Assembly: GCF_016772475.1 (NCBI RefSeq)
Contig: NZ_CP068596.1
Location: 1 to 64,000 of the forward strand
Direction: 5' to 3'
Source: Paenibacillus sonchi
GTDB taxonomy: Bacteria > Bacillota > Bacilli > Paenibacillales > Paenibacillaceae
Length of the DNA: 64,000 nucleotides
Shown: positions 13,184-44,593 of the stretch, in pieces
How the letters are laid out: each line of letters opens with the position of its first letter
How positions within the stretch are numbered: the first letter of the stretch is position 1
Position numbers and translations under genes: made by a program
The notes under the pieces: generated by a model
Told to the model about the DNA's origin: nothing
The model's input: the letters and a program-made list of their open reading frames with translations, nothing else
Database searches by the model: none

Positions 13184-14902
13184 ATGCCTACAACAAAAAC
13201 GATACCAAGAACTTTGAATGAGGAACTATCTAAAGGTGATACGGGAGAACAGGTTTTATTCCTTCAAGCAGTATTAAATAAGCTTGGTTATTTACAAACT
13301 AAACCAGAGGAAGAGTCAATAGGATTAACGGCCCCAGAAGCTCATTTTGATGAAGATACGCAAGTAGCTCTTCGTAAATATCAAAATTTCCATGGGTTAA
13401 GCGAAACCGGTAAGTTAGATCAAAACACTCTAAATCAAATGTCTTTACCAAGATGTGGTCTCCCGGATGTTAATCTCACATCAAGTGATTTTAAAGCTCA
13501 AGGAAACCGTTGGGGAAAGACAGGTTTAAATTTTAAAATTGAAAATATAACTTCAGATCTACCTGAAAATGATGTGCGAAACGCTATCATTTCAGCACTA
13601 AGTTTTTGGAGTAAGGTTACCCCCTTAGTTTTTACAGAAACAAACGATAATAATGTTGACATACGTATAAAGTTTTCTACTTTTGAACATGGCGATGGCT
13701 CCCCTTTTGATGGTCAAGGGGGCATATTAGCTCACGGTTTCTCCCCTCCACCAAACGGAGGAGATATTGCTGGTGATGTACATTTTGATGATAGTGAAGT
13801 TTGGTCAGTAAATACACCTGCGTCAGGCATTGATTTGCTTACCGTTGCTATTCATGAATTTGGGCATTCTTTAGGACTTAATCATTCTAATGTAAAGGCT
13901 TCGGTGAGTCATCGTTATCTGCACGAAGATGACATCGAAGGGATTCAGTCCATTTACGGCAAAGCACTTCAATCTTGCGGAAATTCTGTTATCCTACAAA
14001 GTAAATTTGGAAATAAGGGAAATTTCGAGCTCATCACTCCCCTCACAACTGGAGGGCTTGCTCATTATTGGCGGAACAACGATGATCCAAATTTGCCTTG
14101 GAGTAGCCCTACTGTTTTTGCCACCGGTCTTGGTCGAATTGAGGCGCTTACTTTCATCCAAAGCAATTTTGGTATCCCCGGTAACTTCGAGGTATTTGTT
14201 CGGGTCGGTGAAAGGTTGGCTACTATGTGGTGTGATTCACAAACTCATAAATGGAGTGAACCCACTTTTTTGTTTGAAGGTGTGACCGGTAACCCTACTG
14301 TCATTCAAAGTCGCTTTGGAAATAAGGGAAATTTTGAGCTCATCACTCCCCTCACTACTGGAGGACTTGCTCATTATTGGCGGAACAACGATGATCCAAA
14401 TTTGCCTTGGAGTAGCCCTACTGTTTTTGCCACCGGTCTTGGTCGAATTGAGGCGCTTACTTTCATCCAAAGCAATTTTGGTATCCCCGGTAACTTCGAG
14501 GTATTTGTTCGGGTCGGTGAAAGGTTGGCTACTATGTGGTGTGATTCACAAACTCATAAATGGAGTGAACCCACTTTTTTGTTTGAAGGTGTGACCGGTA
14601 ACCCTACTGTCATTCAAAGTCGCTTTGGAAATAAGGGAAATTTTGAGCTCATCACTCCCCTCACTACTGGAGGACTTGCTCATTATTGGCGGAACAACGA
14701 TGATCCAAATTTGCCTTGGAGTAGCCCTACTGTTTTTGCCACTGGTCTTGGTCGAATTGAAGCACTTACTTTCATTCAAAGCAATTTCGGTGTCCCTGGT
14801 AACTTCGAGGTATTTGTTCGGGTCGGTGAAAGGTTGGCTACTATGTGGTGTGATTCACAAACTCATAAATGGAGTGATATATCCTACATTCTGGGAAGCT
14901 GA
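13184..14902 (+). CDS. Matrixin (MMP-like, M10) metalloprotease with three lectin-like repeats
   Basis: 572 residues. Residues about 15-85 form a peptidoglycan-binding-like prodomain (DTGEQVLFLQAVLNKLGYL, TGKLDQNTLNQM) ending in PRCGLPD, the cysteine-switch motif of matrix metalloproteases. The catalytic domain has HEFGHSLGLNHS (zinc ligands and Glu). After it the family normally has a Met-turn; here the sequence is NVKASVSHRYLHEDD with no Met. Residues 265-565 are three near-identical 103-residue repeats (QSRFGNKGNFELITPL, LAHYWRNNDDPNLPWSSP), beta-rich and perhaps propeller-like. No signal peptide is visible. The start ATG follows AAGGAG. Isolated gene, more AT-rich than its surroundings. 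Confidence 0.88.
   Translation: MPTTKTIPRTLNEELSKGDTGEQVLFLQAVLNKLGYLQTKPEEESIGLTAPEAHFDEDTQVALRKYQNFHGLSETGKLDQNTLNQMSLPRCGLPDVNLTSSDFKAQGNRWGKTGLNFKIENITSDLPENDVRNAIISALSFWSKVTPLVFTETNDNNVDIRIKFSTFEHGDGSPFDGQGGILAHGFSPPPNGGDIAGDVHFDDSEVWSVNTPASGIDLLTVAIHEFGHSLGLNHSNVKASVSHRYLHEDDIEGIQSIYGKALQSCGNSVILQSKFGNKGNFELITPLTTGGLAHYWRNNDDPNLPWSSPTVFATGLGRIEALTFIQSNFGIPGNFEVFVRVGERLATMWCDSQTHKWSEPTFLFEGVTGNPTVIQSRFGNKGNFELITPLTTGGLAHYWRNNDDPNLPWSSPTVFATGLGRIEALTFIQSNFGIPGNFEVFVRVGERLATMWCDSQTHKWSEPTFLFEGVTGNPTVIQSRFGNKGNFELITPLTTGGLAHYWRNNDDPNLPWSSPTVFATGLGRIEALTFIQSNFGVPGNFEVFVRVGERLATMWCDSQTHKWSDISYILGS
13985..14877 (+). repeat. 309-bp tandem repeats inside the metalloprotease gene
   Basis: Units beginning at about 13997, 14306 and 14615 are spaced exactly 309 bp (103 codons). 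Units 1 and 2 differ by few bases; unit 3 carries a few more silent or conservative changes. This implies recent duplication or gene conversion. Confidence 0.9.
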
Positions 14903-14982: not shown

Positions 14983-14987
14983 CTTCA

Positions 14988-15880
14988 TGTTGGGTGAAAA
15001 TAAAGTATTAGACAGGAGTAGTTGATTTAACGAGGTTCTTGTATTAAAGAATCGTCAGCTACTGAAAAATTAGTATTAGACTGATCCATAAAATGAAGCT
15101 GCGGCAGCCCAAGACTTAATAAATAAAGTCTTAGACTACCGCTGTTGTTAAACTAACGTTTCCCGTTAACTCAATGGATTAACAATATTCTTCAGACTTA
15201 GCTGTTCACGTAAAGACATCCAGCTTTCCGTCACGGTTTGATGAGCCGTGTCGATCACGATGTGGTCGCGGTCCCAAGCTTCGTAATGTCTATTCTTCAC
15301 CTCATTCCAAGTGGGGAGGGTAAAGCCGGGAATGTCTGTTGTATGAGTAGTGATTCGTTGCTTGTGCTCACATTCGTCTGAGCAGACAACTTCGATTTCG
15401 ACAAACGGAATTTCTAGAGACTCTGCTACATTACGCCAAGCTTGGCGTGTATAGCGAATGGGATTGACCGTGTCTGATATCACATCCAGACCTAAAATGA
15501 GATTCTGCCTCGCTATCTCGTAACAAACGATGTAACCCTCAGGTCCGTCAACCTTGACCCCGGCAACGCGCATGGCCTGTTCTACGACATCAACCCGAAG
15601 ATACGGTGCTCGAAGTTCACTTGCTAAAGCTGATGATAACGCAGACTTGCCGGTGCCTGGCAACCCGCCAAATATATACAGCATATTGATTTCCTCCTTC
15701 AAGACAACCTGTTTACTGTTTAATGCCTACAGCCTCGTTTAATATCATTCTCGTAATTTTCGAGAATACCTTTGTTAAGTATCCTGACCGTTAGCTTAAT
15801 GATGGCTTCGTGAGTCTACAACTTTATTTGCTGAGTCTAACACTTTATTTTTCAATCTAGAACTTTATTTTCTTTTGACA
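14988..15880 (+). mobile_element. Complete Tn7-like mini-element, 893 bp, with 5-bp target duplication
   Basis: The left tip TGTTGGGTGAAAATAAAG starts at 14988 and the right tip ends CTTTTGACA at 15880. The flanking pentamers CTTCA (14983-14987) and CTTCA (15881-15885) are identical, as expected for a Tn7-type 5-bp duplication. The left end has three spaced TnsB-like sites (14996, 15064, about 15118); the right end has three stacked 20-21 bp sites (15813-15873). As I recall it, the Tn7 site is GACAATAAAGTCTTAAACT; here it is GAAAATAAAGTATTAGACT. Cargo is one P-loop kinase gene; no transposition gene is present, so it must be moved in trans. Confidence 0.85.
15166..15684 (-). CDS. P-loop kinase-like protein (AAA_33 type), cargo of the mini-element
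   Basis: 172 residues. Walker A GGLPGTGKSALSSALA lies at the N-terminus, followed by APYLRVDVVEQAMR and a lid-like Arg-rich part. It belongs to the AAA_33 / zeta-toxin / chloramphenicol phosphotransferase-like small kinases; the substrate is unknown and could be an antibiotic, nucleotide or sugar. The ATG at 15684 follows GAAGGAGG. It is the only gene inside the Tn7-like element, transcribed from right to left, and its function as cargo could be resistance or defence. Confidence 0.8.
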   Translation of the reverse strand: MLYIFGGLPGTGKSALSSALASELRAPYLRVDVVEQAMRVAGVKVDGPEGYIVCYEIARQNLILGLDVISDTVNPIRYTRQAWRNVAESLEIPFVEIEVVCSDECEHKQRITTHTTDIPGFTLPTWNEVKNRHYEAWDRDHIVIDTAHQTVTESWMSLREQLSLKNIVNPLS

Positions 15881-15885
15881 CTTCA

Positions 15886-25844: not shown

Positions 25845-26187
25845 TGTTCAGAGAAAATAAGCTATTAGACTGCTGTAGTTGAAATGACAACGATTTTGAT
25901 TCGGAAAAACGTCAGTGATTGAAAAATTAGTATTAGACTCGCCTGTAGAGTTCTATAAGGAGAGCCGAACAGTTAGACTAAGCTTGCGAGTTGAAGATTA
26001 CCCTGCAGCTGGCCGCCGGTTGTGCCGATCGCCTCCGGAAGAACATCCAGGAGCGTGAGCTGAAGATCGCTCGAACAGCTGACCGCCGCCGGTCGTATCG
26101 ATCGCTGCGCATCGGTACTCATCCGGAAGCGCATTCAGCCAGTCTACAACTTTAATACCGAGTCTAACACTTTATTTTCTTCTGACA
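25845..26187 (+). mobile_element. Tn7-like MITE 1 (343 bp, no gene)
   Basis: The left tip TGTTCAGAGAAAATAAGC at 25845 starts spaced TnsB-like sites (a second, GAAAAATTAGTATTAGACT, about 25925). The right end has two stacked sites (26140-26180) and tip TTCTGACA at 26187. The interior has a GC-rich ~65-bp unit (CTCCGGAAGAACATCCAG, GAGCTGAAGATCGC). It is very similar to MITE 2 at 27.4 kb. The flanks (CCTTC and GCCGA) are not a duplication, so it may be rearranged or old. Confidence 0.7.
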
Positions 26188-26554: not shown

Positions 26555-26902
26555 TGTTTTACCACCCCTTCGTATTAATGTATATGATTTGCAATACCAT
26601 TAAAAAATACACATCAATAATACTTATTGGTTGATGGTAAGTAATGATTATTAATAATTTACATAATATTACACCGTGCAACAAATCACGATATATTATT
26701 TACTAAAAATAGGGTTTAAATCCTATATATATTATTTCAAGTGTATAGTTATAATTATTCTATAAAATAGACTAATTTAGTAAATGACTAGATGCGTTTT
26801 TCTGCTCTATGTATGTAATTCAAATTTATTATCAAAGAGAGGTGGGGTATTTTCAAAGTTCATTTCTTTAGTTTATTAAAAAACCGTTTTGGAGGGATTA
26901 GT
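26555..26902. other. AT-rich intergenic region
   Basis: Divergent promoter region between the DUF3888-like gene and the secreted protein; AT-rich, without a repeat I can define. The downstream gene has GGAGGG before its ATG. Confidence 0.4.
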
Positions 26903-27434: not shown

Positions 27435-27767
27435 TGTGCGGAGAAAATAAACTATTAGACTGCTGTAGTTGAAATGACAACGATTTGGAATTGGAAAAAC
27501 GTCGGCGATTGAAAAATTAGTATTAGTCTAAGCAGTCGCTATTAAGGAGAGACGAACAGGAAAATAAAGTACTAGACTAATCTTTTTCGGGTTGAAGATC
27601 GCCCTGCAGCTGGCCGCCGGTTGTGCCGATCGCCTCCGGAAGAACATCCAGGAGCGTGAGCTGAAGATCGCTCGAACAGCCGACCGCCGCCGGTCGTATC
27701 GATCGCTGCGTATCCGGAAGGGATTCAGCCAGTCTACAACTTTATTTTCTCAGTCTACAGCAAAAAT
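27435..27767 (+). mobile_element. Tn7-like MITE 2, right tip damaged
   Basis: The left tip TGTGCGGAGAAAATAAAC at 27435 has spaced sites at about 27444, 27508 and 27561. The interior matches MITE 1 including the CTGCAGCTGGCCGCCGG segment. The right end keeps one full site (27730-27750) and a broken second one. Left flank CCTAA; no matching duplication, because the tip is lost. Confidence 0.65.
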
Positions 27768-44015: not shown

Positions 44016-44593
44016 TATGGAAAAAAATAAAGTCATAGACAAAATTTATTGATTTAATGGGGTTTTGGCGCTTGATAATCGAAAGCAGAAAAAAAATGAG
44101 TTTTAGGCTGATCAACGATTTATTACGCAAAGAGTATAAACAAAAAATAATATATTTGACTGTGTATACAGGTCCTGAAACAATTGATCTCCCGACCGGC
44201 GCCGCCGGTTTCGCCCGGATGCAACCAGGCGTGCGGAGCTGCAGCAGCTGGTCATTTTGCTCGGCGCCGCCGGTTTCGCCCGGATGCAGCCAGGCGGCGG
44301 AGTTGCAGCAGCTGGTCATCTCGCTCGGCGCCGCCGGTTTCGCCCGGATGCAACGAGGCGTGCGGAGCTGCAGCAGCAAGCCATCCCGGGCGGCGCGGCC
44401 GGTTTTGCCTGGATGTAACCAGGCGTGTGGAGCTGCAGCAGCAGGTCTTCCCGTCCGGCGCCACCGGTTACGTCCGGAGCTGAAGCAGCTGGCCATCCCG
44501 CCCATCGCCGCCGGTACCGTCTGTTCAATTCTATAGCGGTCTACCAGACTAAAACTTTACTTTTACAGCCTAATACTTTATTTTCTTTTAACA
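44016..44593 (+). mobile_element. Degraded Tn7-like element carrying GC-rich repeats
   Basis: The left tip TATGGAAAAAAATAAAGTCA at 44016 (TGT changed to TAT) and the right tip TTCTTTTAACA at 44593 with two stacked sites (44545-44586). The flanks GTGAC / GTTAC differ by one base, consistent with an old 5-bp duplication. The interior has an AT-rich left part and the type-1 repeat array; no intact gene. Confidence 0.55.
44198..44520. repeat. GC-rich ~65-bp tandem repeats, type 1
   Basis: Four good units and a fifth truncated one begin CGGCGCCGCCGGTTTCGCCC and continue GGATGCAACCAGGCGTGCGG, AGCTGCAGCAGCTGGTCAT. Similar single or double units sit in the Tn7-like elements at 9.95, 26.0 and 27.6 kb. 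Whole units are conserved, so it is not a repeat-spacer array. Confidence 0.75.

Follow-up and report, generated by a model that had tools for sequence, protein, structure and literature searches.

The window, that is, the whole 64,000-nt stretch of DNA analysed here, covers the first 64,000 positions of contig NZ_CP068596.1, a 256-kb plasmid of Paenibacillus sonchi called C2 below. It carries a mini-element of 893 bp at 14988-15880, which opens with TGT (14988-14990) and closes with an ACA ending at 15880. An earlier note on this DNA had described the two tips, a perfect 5-bp duplication, three TnsB-like sites per end and a single P-loop kinase as cargo, and each of these claims holds: CTTCA stands at both 14983-14987 and 15881-15885, the sites start at 14998, 15066 and 15121 on the plus strand at the left and at 15813, 15834 and 15854 on the minus strand at the right, and the kinase matches AAA_33 with an E value of 1.6e-10. 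A feature beyond that note is that the cargo is bounded by cores of a cassette recombination type. The locus is laid out as follows:

14983-14987, no strand: left copy of the target-site duplication, CTTCA (sequence read)
14988-15165, plus strand: left-end module with TGT tip, three spaced TnsB-like sites, hairpin and left core half (E 4.7e-54 against a left-end profile built from 12 elements, this one among them)
14998-15014, plus strand: predicted TnsB-like site L1 (consensus match)
15066-15082, plus strand: predicted TnsB-like site L2, three mismatches to the consensus (repeat analysis, consensus match)
15101-15142, no strand: inverted repeat around L3, arms 15101-15120 and 15123-15142 (repeat analysis)
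15121-15137, plus strand: predicted TnsB-like site L3 (consensus match)
15151-15169, plus strand: left cassette core AACTAACGTTTCCCG^TTAA, one mismatch to AACTAWCGTTTCCCGTTAG (pattern match)
15166-15684, minus strand: P-loop kinase coding sequence (AAA_33), 172 aa from ATG (Pfam match, start picked by eye)
15166-15790, minus strand: putative gene cassette of 625 bp (borders by analogy: elsewhere, cassettes are shared from core to core)
15780-15801, plus strand: right cassette core TATCCTGACCG^TTAGCTTAATG (sequence comparison of mini-elements)
15791-15880, minus strand: right-end module with right core half, three stacked TnsB-like sites and ACA tip (E 2.6e-21 against a right-end profile built from 12 elements, this one included)
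15813-15829, minus strand: predicted TnsB-like site R3 (consensus match)
15834-15850, minus strand: predicted TnsB-like site R2 (consensus match)
15854-15870, minus strand: predicted TnsB-like site R1, terminal (consensus match)
15881-15885, no strand: right copy of the target-site duplication, CTTCA (sequence read)

Direct-repeat analysis shows three 19-bp repeats at each end, with spacings of 68 and 55 bp in the left set and of 21 and 20 bp in the right set, and the two ends are mutually inverted. The site consensus derived from these repeats, AAATAAAGTNNTAGACT, occurs on C2 in 14, 35 and 47 copies at up to 0, 1 and 2 mismatches, a density far above the 0, 0.04 and 0.9 copies expected from 50 mononucleotide shuffles. 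An empty site was sought by joining the flanks into a 437-nt query and comparing it to 72,556 plasmid records, which gave no match. Directly to the left of the element lies a gene for a Matrixin-type metalloprotease (13184-14902; Peptidase_M10, PG_binding_1), the 3' part of which is tandemly repeated as judged by eye. Further mini-elements or remnants with the same end type are present in the window at 25845-26187, 27435-27757 and 44020-44593, and no matching 5-bp flanks were found for these three (taken from 25845, 27435 and 44015). A cargo-less fusion of a left half and a right half, with a truncated left end, lies at 2430-2580 (near 2467 of C2).

The link to Tn7, which the earlier note had drawn from recall, gains support from the relative G032, in which matching ends bound a TnsABCDE element beside glmS. 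This element spans 19,454 bp (contig C39, 7273-26726), has the duplication ACAAC on both sides and encodes TnsA (PF08722, PF08721), TnsB (PF09299), TnsC (AAA_22, TniB), TnsD (PF15978 plus TniQ) and TnsE (PF18623, E 1e-8). Its right tip faces the 3' end of glmS (the gene was recognised by eye), and the stop codon, which ends at 26753, is 26 bp away from the tip; classical Tn7 inserts just downstream of glmS with its right end nearer to the gene. Five stacked AAATAAAGTNNTAGACT-type sites adjoin tnsA in G032, the only clear case in a scan that covered 20 of the 40 listed TnsA matches. A single site of this type, with a TGT tip, is found near tnsA of G052 (L080, near 12818) and possibly marks a second helper lineage. 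G032 also carries a 3.2-kb mini-element (L088) with the same ends, CTTTC on both sides and, by eye, no tns gene.

The window's own genome gave no match to the models for TnsA (PF08722), TniQ (PF06527), Mu-transpos_C (PF09299) and TnsE (PF18623), which agrees with the non-autonomous character proposed in the earlier note, and mobility must therefore come in trans. The searches with PF08722 and PF18623 (TnsE_C) were able to find their targets, matching 29 and 2 of 100 relatives' genomes, respectively; with PF06527 and PF09299 the control genomes were silent as well. Since TnsA is detected in 29 of 100 genomes, TnsE_C in two, and clearly matching ends accompany only one helper, helpers are rare or transient, and those bearing TnsE are rare. 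The tips with their TnsB-type site arrays, the 5-bp duplication and the ends common to a tnsABC-bearing element support, at the level of sequence, the assignment of the window element as a Tn7-like transposon, and the lack of tns-model matches in the element and its genome makes it a predicted non-autonomous one.

The window element belongs to a population. Queried with the whole element, 69 of 100 genomes gave a match, a figure that should not be read as the number of genomes with ends, as some matched in the kinase gene alone (e.g. G051) and few candidates were scored per genome. With the left end as query, matches were obtained in 21 of 25 genomes of the genus, most of these genomes being complete; some matches cover no more than the inner portion of the end. 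Perfect 5-bp duplications flank ten elements, including the window element and the G032 parent, and an eleventh was found in a further set; among 21 element stretches compared, two of them with arbitrary right borders, nine were flanked by matching 5-bp sequences. Elements that have a perfect duplication and no tns gene measure 893-6170 bp. Inspected by eye, mini-element cargo resembles transporters, acetyltransferases, cupins, oxidoreductases and regulators, plus insertion-sequence genes in one case, and no tns gene was seen among these open reading frames. One 1915-bp member on C2 (136955-138869) has a perfect AAGAG duplication and a left end that lacks a cassette core. On this plasmid, 16 of the 17 end sets point the same way (p 2.7e-4; counted by eye, weak sets included). 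TnsE-type targeting in chromosomes was considered and finds no evidence: 28 left-end matches run with and 43 against the direction of the fork (p 0.096; 71 match rows remaining after weaker, ambiguous and plasmid rows were set aside, with dnaA positions and mostly rounded genome sizes). In these mostly single-contig chromosomes, 26 of the 71 matches fall in the fifth nearest the inferred terminus.

Comparison of the mini-elements revealed the cassette cores. Most of those read have AACTAACGTTTCCCG^TTAG between left end and cargo and CTATCCTGCCCG^TTAGCTTAATG between cargo and right end, where ^ marks the joint and putative crossover point. Each core is a dyad, CTAWCG..CGTTAG, as judged by eye. 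The joint CCCG^TTAG flanks the window kinase on both sides, with substitutions in the window copies (TTAA; CTGACCG), so the window element may be a weak recombination substrate. Three cargo-less remnants (C2 near 2467, C2 near 253705 and L010) have the left core half fused directly to the right half; no matching duplication was found for them. The left core was present in 36 of 52 distinct left-end profile matches, always at end position 154-165; the profile itself leans toward the core, which most of its 12 source elements have, and the 52 matches include some that are no true left ends. The right core was present in 10 of 26 right-end profile matches, and at the thresholds used the remaining 16 in each set had no recognisable core. 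The autonomous parent in G032 has neither core.

Cargo is in some cases shared from core to core, as the comparison of 163 cassettes cut at cores shows. At minimum thresholds of 80% for both identity and length coverage, eleven pairs emerged; eight of these represent one locus twice, and the other three are full-length matches between genomes (93.1% over 419 bp, 97.7% over 1025 bp and 96.8% over 1132 bp) in unrelated flanks. A second line of evidence comes from an orthologous locus of the window's genome (G000) and G028, where the main flanking blocks are 95.9 and 97.3% identical and the cargo is different, 1317 bp in one genome and 331 bp in the second. The break falls at the left core and within about 17 bp of the right core, with similarity running that far into the cargo. 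The 331-bp cassette is that of another mini-element in the window's genome (325 identities, 3 mismatches, 3 gap columns). The two loci differ further in that G000 has roughly 140 additional bp beyond the left tip, at a distance of some 50 bp from it, and in a gap near L215:16130. In several cases the cargo thus consists of discrete mobile cassettes with exact borders, a trait of integrons.

The cores also occur in chromosomal arrays. AACTAWCGTTTCCCGTTAG was found at up to 2 mismatches in 73 of 100 genomes, with up to 67 copies per genome (9 in the window's own), against 0-2 per genome for a reversed-pattern control. Long runs lie on one strand: 20 listed matches, all plus, in G057 (3547523-3633984), and all listed matches at G005:C2 1592979-1767252. 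In five array stretches that were read, genes are separated by sites. A full site of about 80 bp consists of a right-type core, a hairpin and a left-type core, and 118 distinct examples were collected. Their longest perfect inner stem averages 7.6 bp, compared to 4.5 bp in shuffles of the inner part, and reaches at least 7 bp in 59% of sites and 2.9% of shuffled ones. No consensus fold was obtained from a MAFFT alignment of the sites, probably due to stems lying in different registers, and Rfam at gathering thresholds returned nothing for three array loci. The nearest open reading frame on the cassette side, within 300 bp, points toward the site in 91 of 113 cases and away in 8, and the remaining 14 sites have none in range (the count excludes five sites close to locus edges). 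Co-oriented arrays of mostly single-gene cassettes, a further integron trait, are therefore present.

A candidate enzyme for these sites is a family of tyrosine recombinases, first encountered as broken copies within a mini-element and an array. Most full-length members listed have 280 aa. The query found 334 relatives at E <= 1e-10, and those with names among the 120 matches listed are mostly from Paenibacillus. In the best 80 of 198 loci from named genomes, some of which share a genome, cores at up to 3 mismatches were present in 58 and absent from 22; 155 of the 156 cores have the orientation opposite to that of the recombinase gene, and a reversed-pattern control gave 0. Searched with one family member, 24 of the 100 genomes had a match at E <= 1e-40: five only at 31-47% identity, probably other Xer-like proteins, and 19 at 61% or more, with many copies broken or partial. 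Intact near-full-length genes are listed in five genomes (G003, G012, G013, G057 and G081), and the window's own genome gave no match to the 280-aa recombinase. G005 has 67 cores and no match at E 1e-40; its array has perhaps lost its enzyme or uses another, and other Xer-like enzymes could act in genomes of this type. Several recombinase loci (L134, L142, L205 and others) have a conserved leader just before the start, in which an inverted repeat, AAAACCTC...GAGGTTTT, is seen by eye; the repeat could hide the ribosome-binding site, which suggests controlled translation. Near an array edge in G051 lies a gene for a 356-aa tyrosine recombinase (L133, 6001-7071), weakly similar to the 280-aa family.

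The window kinase offers a view of how a cassette may arise. The open reading frame as listed begins at TTG 15702; ATG 15684 is the likelier start, with AAGGAGG ahead of it (by eye). Its stop codon coincides with the left cassette core and its final codons derive from the cassette edge, if the cassette borders lie at 15166 and 15790 as the analogy with shared cassettes suggests. Named relatives among the matches listed are mostly Paenibacillus AAA family ATPases. From about 15184-15188 to 15748, the gene is 90-91% identical to chromosomal genes of G041 and G058, the fetched flanks of which, at the thresholds used, contain neither terminal-type ends nor cores. Shuffling of known cassettes therefore does not explain the origin of the kinase cassette. 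The window kinase looks like a gene captured into a cassette and, because its closest chromosomal relatives lack ends and cores, the element could represent a recent cassette birth.

Taken together, the best reading of the locus, to which we give a probability of roughly 0.8, is a Tn7-like carrier mobilised in trans that holds an integron-like cassette exchanged at the cores by an Xer-like recombinase. The TnsAB(C) proteins of an autonomous relative with the same ends would bind the three sites at each end and insert the element with a 5-bp duplication, a step suggested by the ends, the duplication and the relative. The payload would be one cassette between the left core CTAACGTTTCCCG^TTAG and the right core CTATCCTGCCCG^TTAG. 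Its exchange at the cores, and its storage in chromosomal arrays with hairpin sites, would most likely be the work of the 280-aa Xer-like tyrosine recombinase acting in trans, as sequence comparison and linkage indicate. Cassettes would then be traded, presumably to this day, between the arrays and a portable Tn7-like carrier, which would bring them to plasmids. The window's genome matches neither the tns models nor the recombinase, and the window copy should therefore be silent unless a helper enters.

Could the arrays be true integrons, in which IntI recombines attC sites in folded form and an attI is carried by the Tn7-like end pair? The arrangement of mostly one gene per cassette in one orientation, with a hairpin between conserved ends and a site close to the recombinase, would fit, but the enzyme and the sites do not. 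Three representatives of the recombinase scored 85.7-90.9 bits, in two separate stretches, against the integron-integrase model TIGR02249, which has a cut-off of 265. The XerC and XerD models score best on them and the best-matching solved structure by sequence is XerD. Both attC motifs, GTTRRRY and RYYYAAC, were found in only 2 of the 118 sites, so the attC consensus does not describe them, and each core is itself a dyad. We consider true integrons unlikely. The representatives are not XerC, XerD or XerA orthologues either, as their scores of 180-196 bits with the XerC/XerD/XerA models lie under the curated cut-offs of 220-335.

Alternatively, homologous recombination, or a nested insertion element with a preference for these sequences, might bring about cassette exchange, the Xer-like gene being a passenger. 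The gene indeed sits in arrays like other cassettes, is broken in several genomes and is missing from many genomes that bear cores. Against this, the shared border sequence of only about 20 bp is short for homologous recombination, and no duplication was seen at the aligned cassette borders. The placement of the gene is also hard to reconcile with a passenger: in 42 of 69 testable loci (those whose start is complete and preceded by 200 bp of sequence, which removed 11 of the 80) a core at up to 5 mismatches lies within 200 bp before the recombinase start, and in 38 of these it is 83-103 bp ahead, a placement for which shuffles predict about 0.2. This explanation appears improbable.

An ordinary Tn7-like element with an internal deletion and fixed cargo would account for the fixed place of the cores within the left end and for the failure to find the recombinase in the window's genome; the cores would be parts of the ends, e.g. 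terminators, a role in transcription that the hairpins could play, and cargo would differ by unrelated insertions and deletions. Yet the same cores are found in arrays away from Tn7 ends and, at near-fixed spacing, ahead of the recombinase gene, core-to-core cassettes are common to unrelated flanks, and cargo switches at the cores in the G000/G028 locus, which leaves fixed cargo with a small chance of being right. Look-alike ends of some other DDE family that makes 5-bp duplications are very improbable, even if two more distant Tn7-like right ends share only the AAATAAAGT half of the site, given that the same ends bound the TnsABCDE element beside glmS.

The trans-mobilised carrier with its exchangeable cassette combines traits of several known systems. 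As in Tn7, it has TGT/ACA tips, several TnsB-type sites arranged differently at each end and stacked every 20-21 bp at the right, a 5-bp duplication, and a related full element with tnsABCDE beside glmS. It differs from Tn7 in that copies free of tns genes, of 893-6170 bp, occur several per replicon, the window copy lies away from glmS, and most mini left ends bear an added cassette core which is absent from the autonomous parent. MITEs and mobile insertion cassettes are likewise short and non-autonomous, with transposase-binding ends only; the window type differs by its multi-site Tn7-type ends and exchangeable cassette cargo. Xer/dif modules, such as the pdif modules of Acinetobacter plasmids, have short dyad sites bounding genes and an Xer-type recombinase. 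These two properties are shared, but sites of the window type are direct, co-oriented, paired around a hairpin and gathered in arrays, and have a 280-aa recombinase family of their own.

The likeness to integrons extends to mostly single-gene cassettes, conserved sites, co-oriented arrays, a tyrosine recombinase with, in many loci, a core adjacent to it that may serve as a primary (attI) site, and carriage on a Tn7-type element, as class 2 integrons ride on Tn7. The differences are an Xer-like recombinase that scores under the integron-integrase cut-off, dyad cores in direct repeat instead of the attC consensus, and a carrier, in the window, without integrase and without transposase. According to the part of the IntegronFinder 2.0 report cited here (PMC9024848), 93% of complete integrons are found in gamma-Proteobacteria and they are extremely rare in Firmicutes, where a single complete one (Limnochorda pilosa) and a few CALIN are recorded. 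We probably face, in the Paenibacillaceae, an undescribed and separately arisen integron-like system, with its 280-aa recombinase, direct CTAWCG..CCCG^TTAG cores, hairpins, chromosomal arrays of tens of cassettes and tiny trans-mobilised carriers that would take cassettes to plasmids. Among titles and abstract openings of the published literature, a scope that left subscription papers largely outside, we found neither natural Tn7-like mini-elements of this kind nor Paenibacillus cassette arrays.

For Tn7-like elements, median lengths of 14-29 kb by clade have been reported (Benler et al. 2021, PMC8649781); the portion of that paper cited here discusses tnsE-less plasmid insertions and the possibility of TnsE acting in trans, and does not treat elements that lack all tns genes. 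Surveys that require an internal transposase gene would miss trans-mobilised elements of the window type. The system would also allow tests of how genes become cassettes, since the cargo gene has a close relative that is not mobilised. If the proposed reading is true, a second, Xer-based way of storing and swapping cassettes is widespread in a Gram-positive genus and linked there to portable Tn7-like carriers, and cassette arrays would have evolved more than once.
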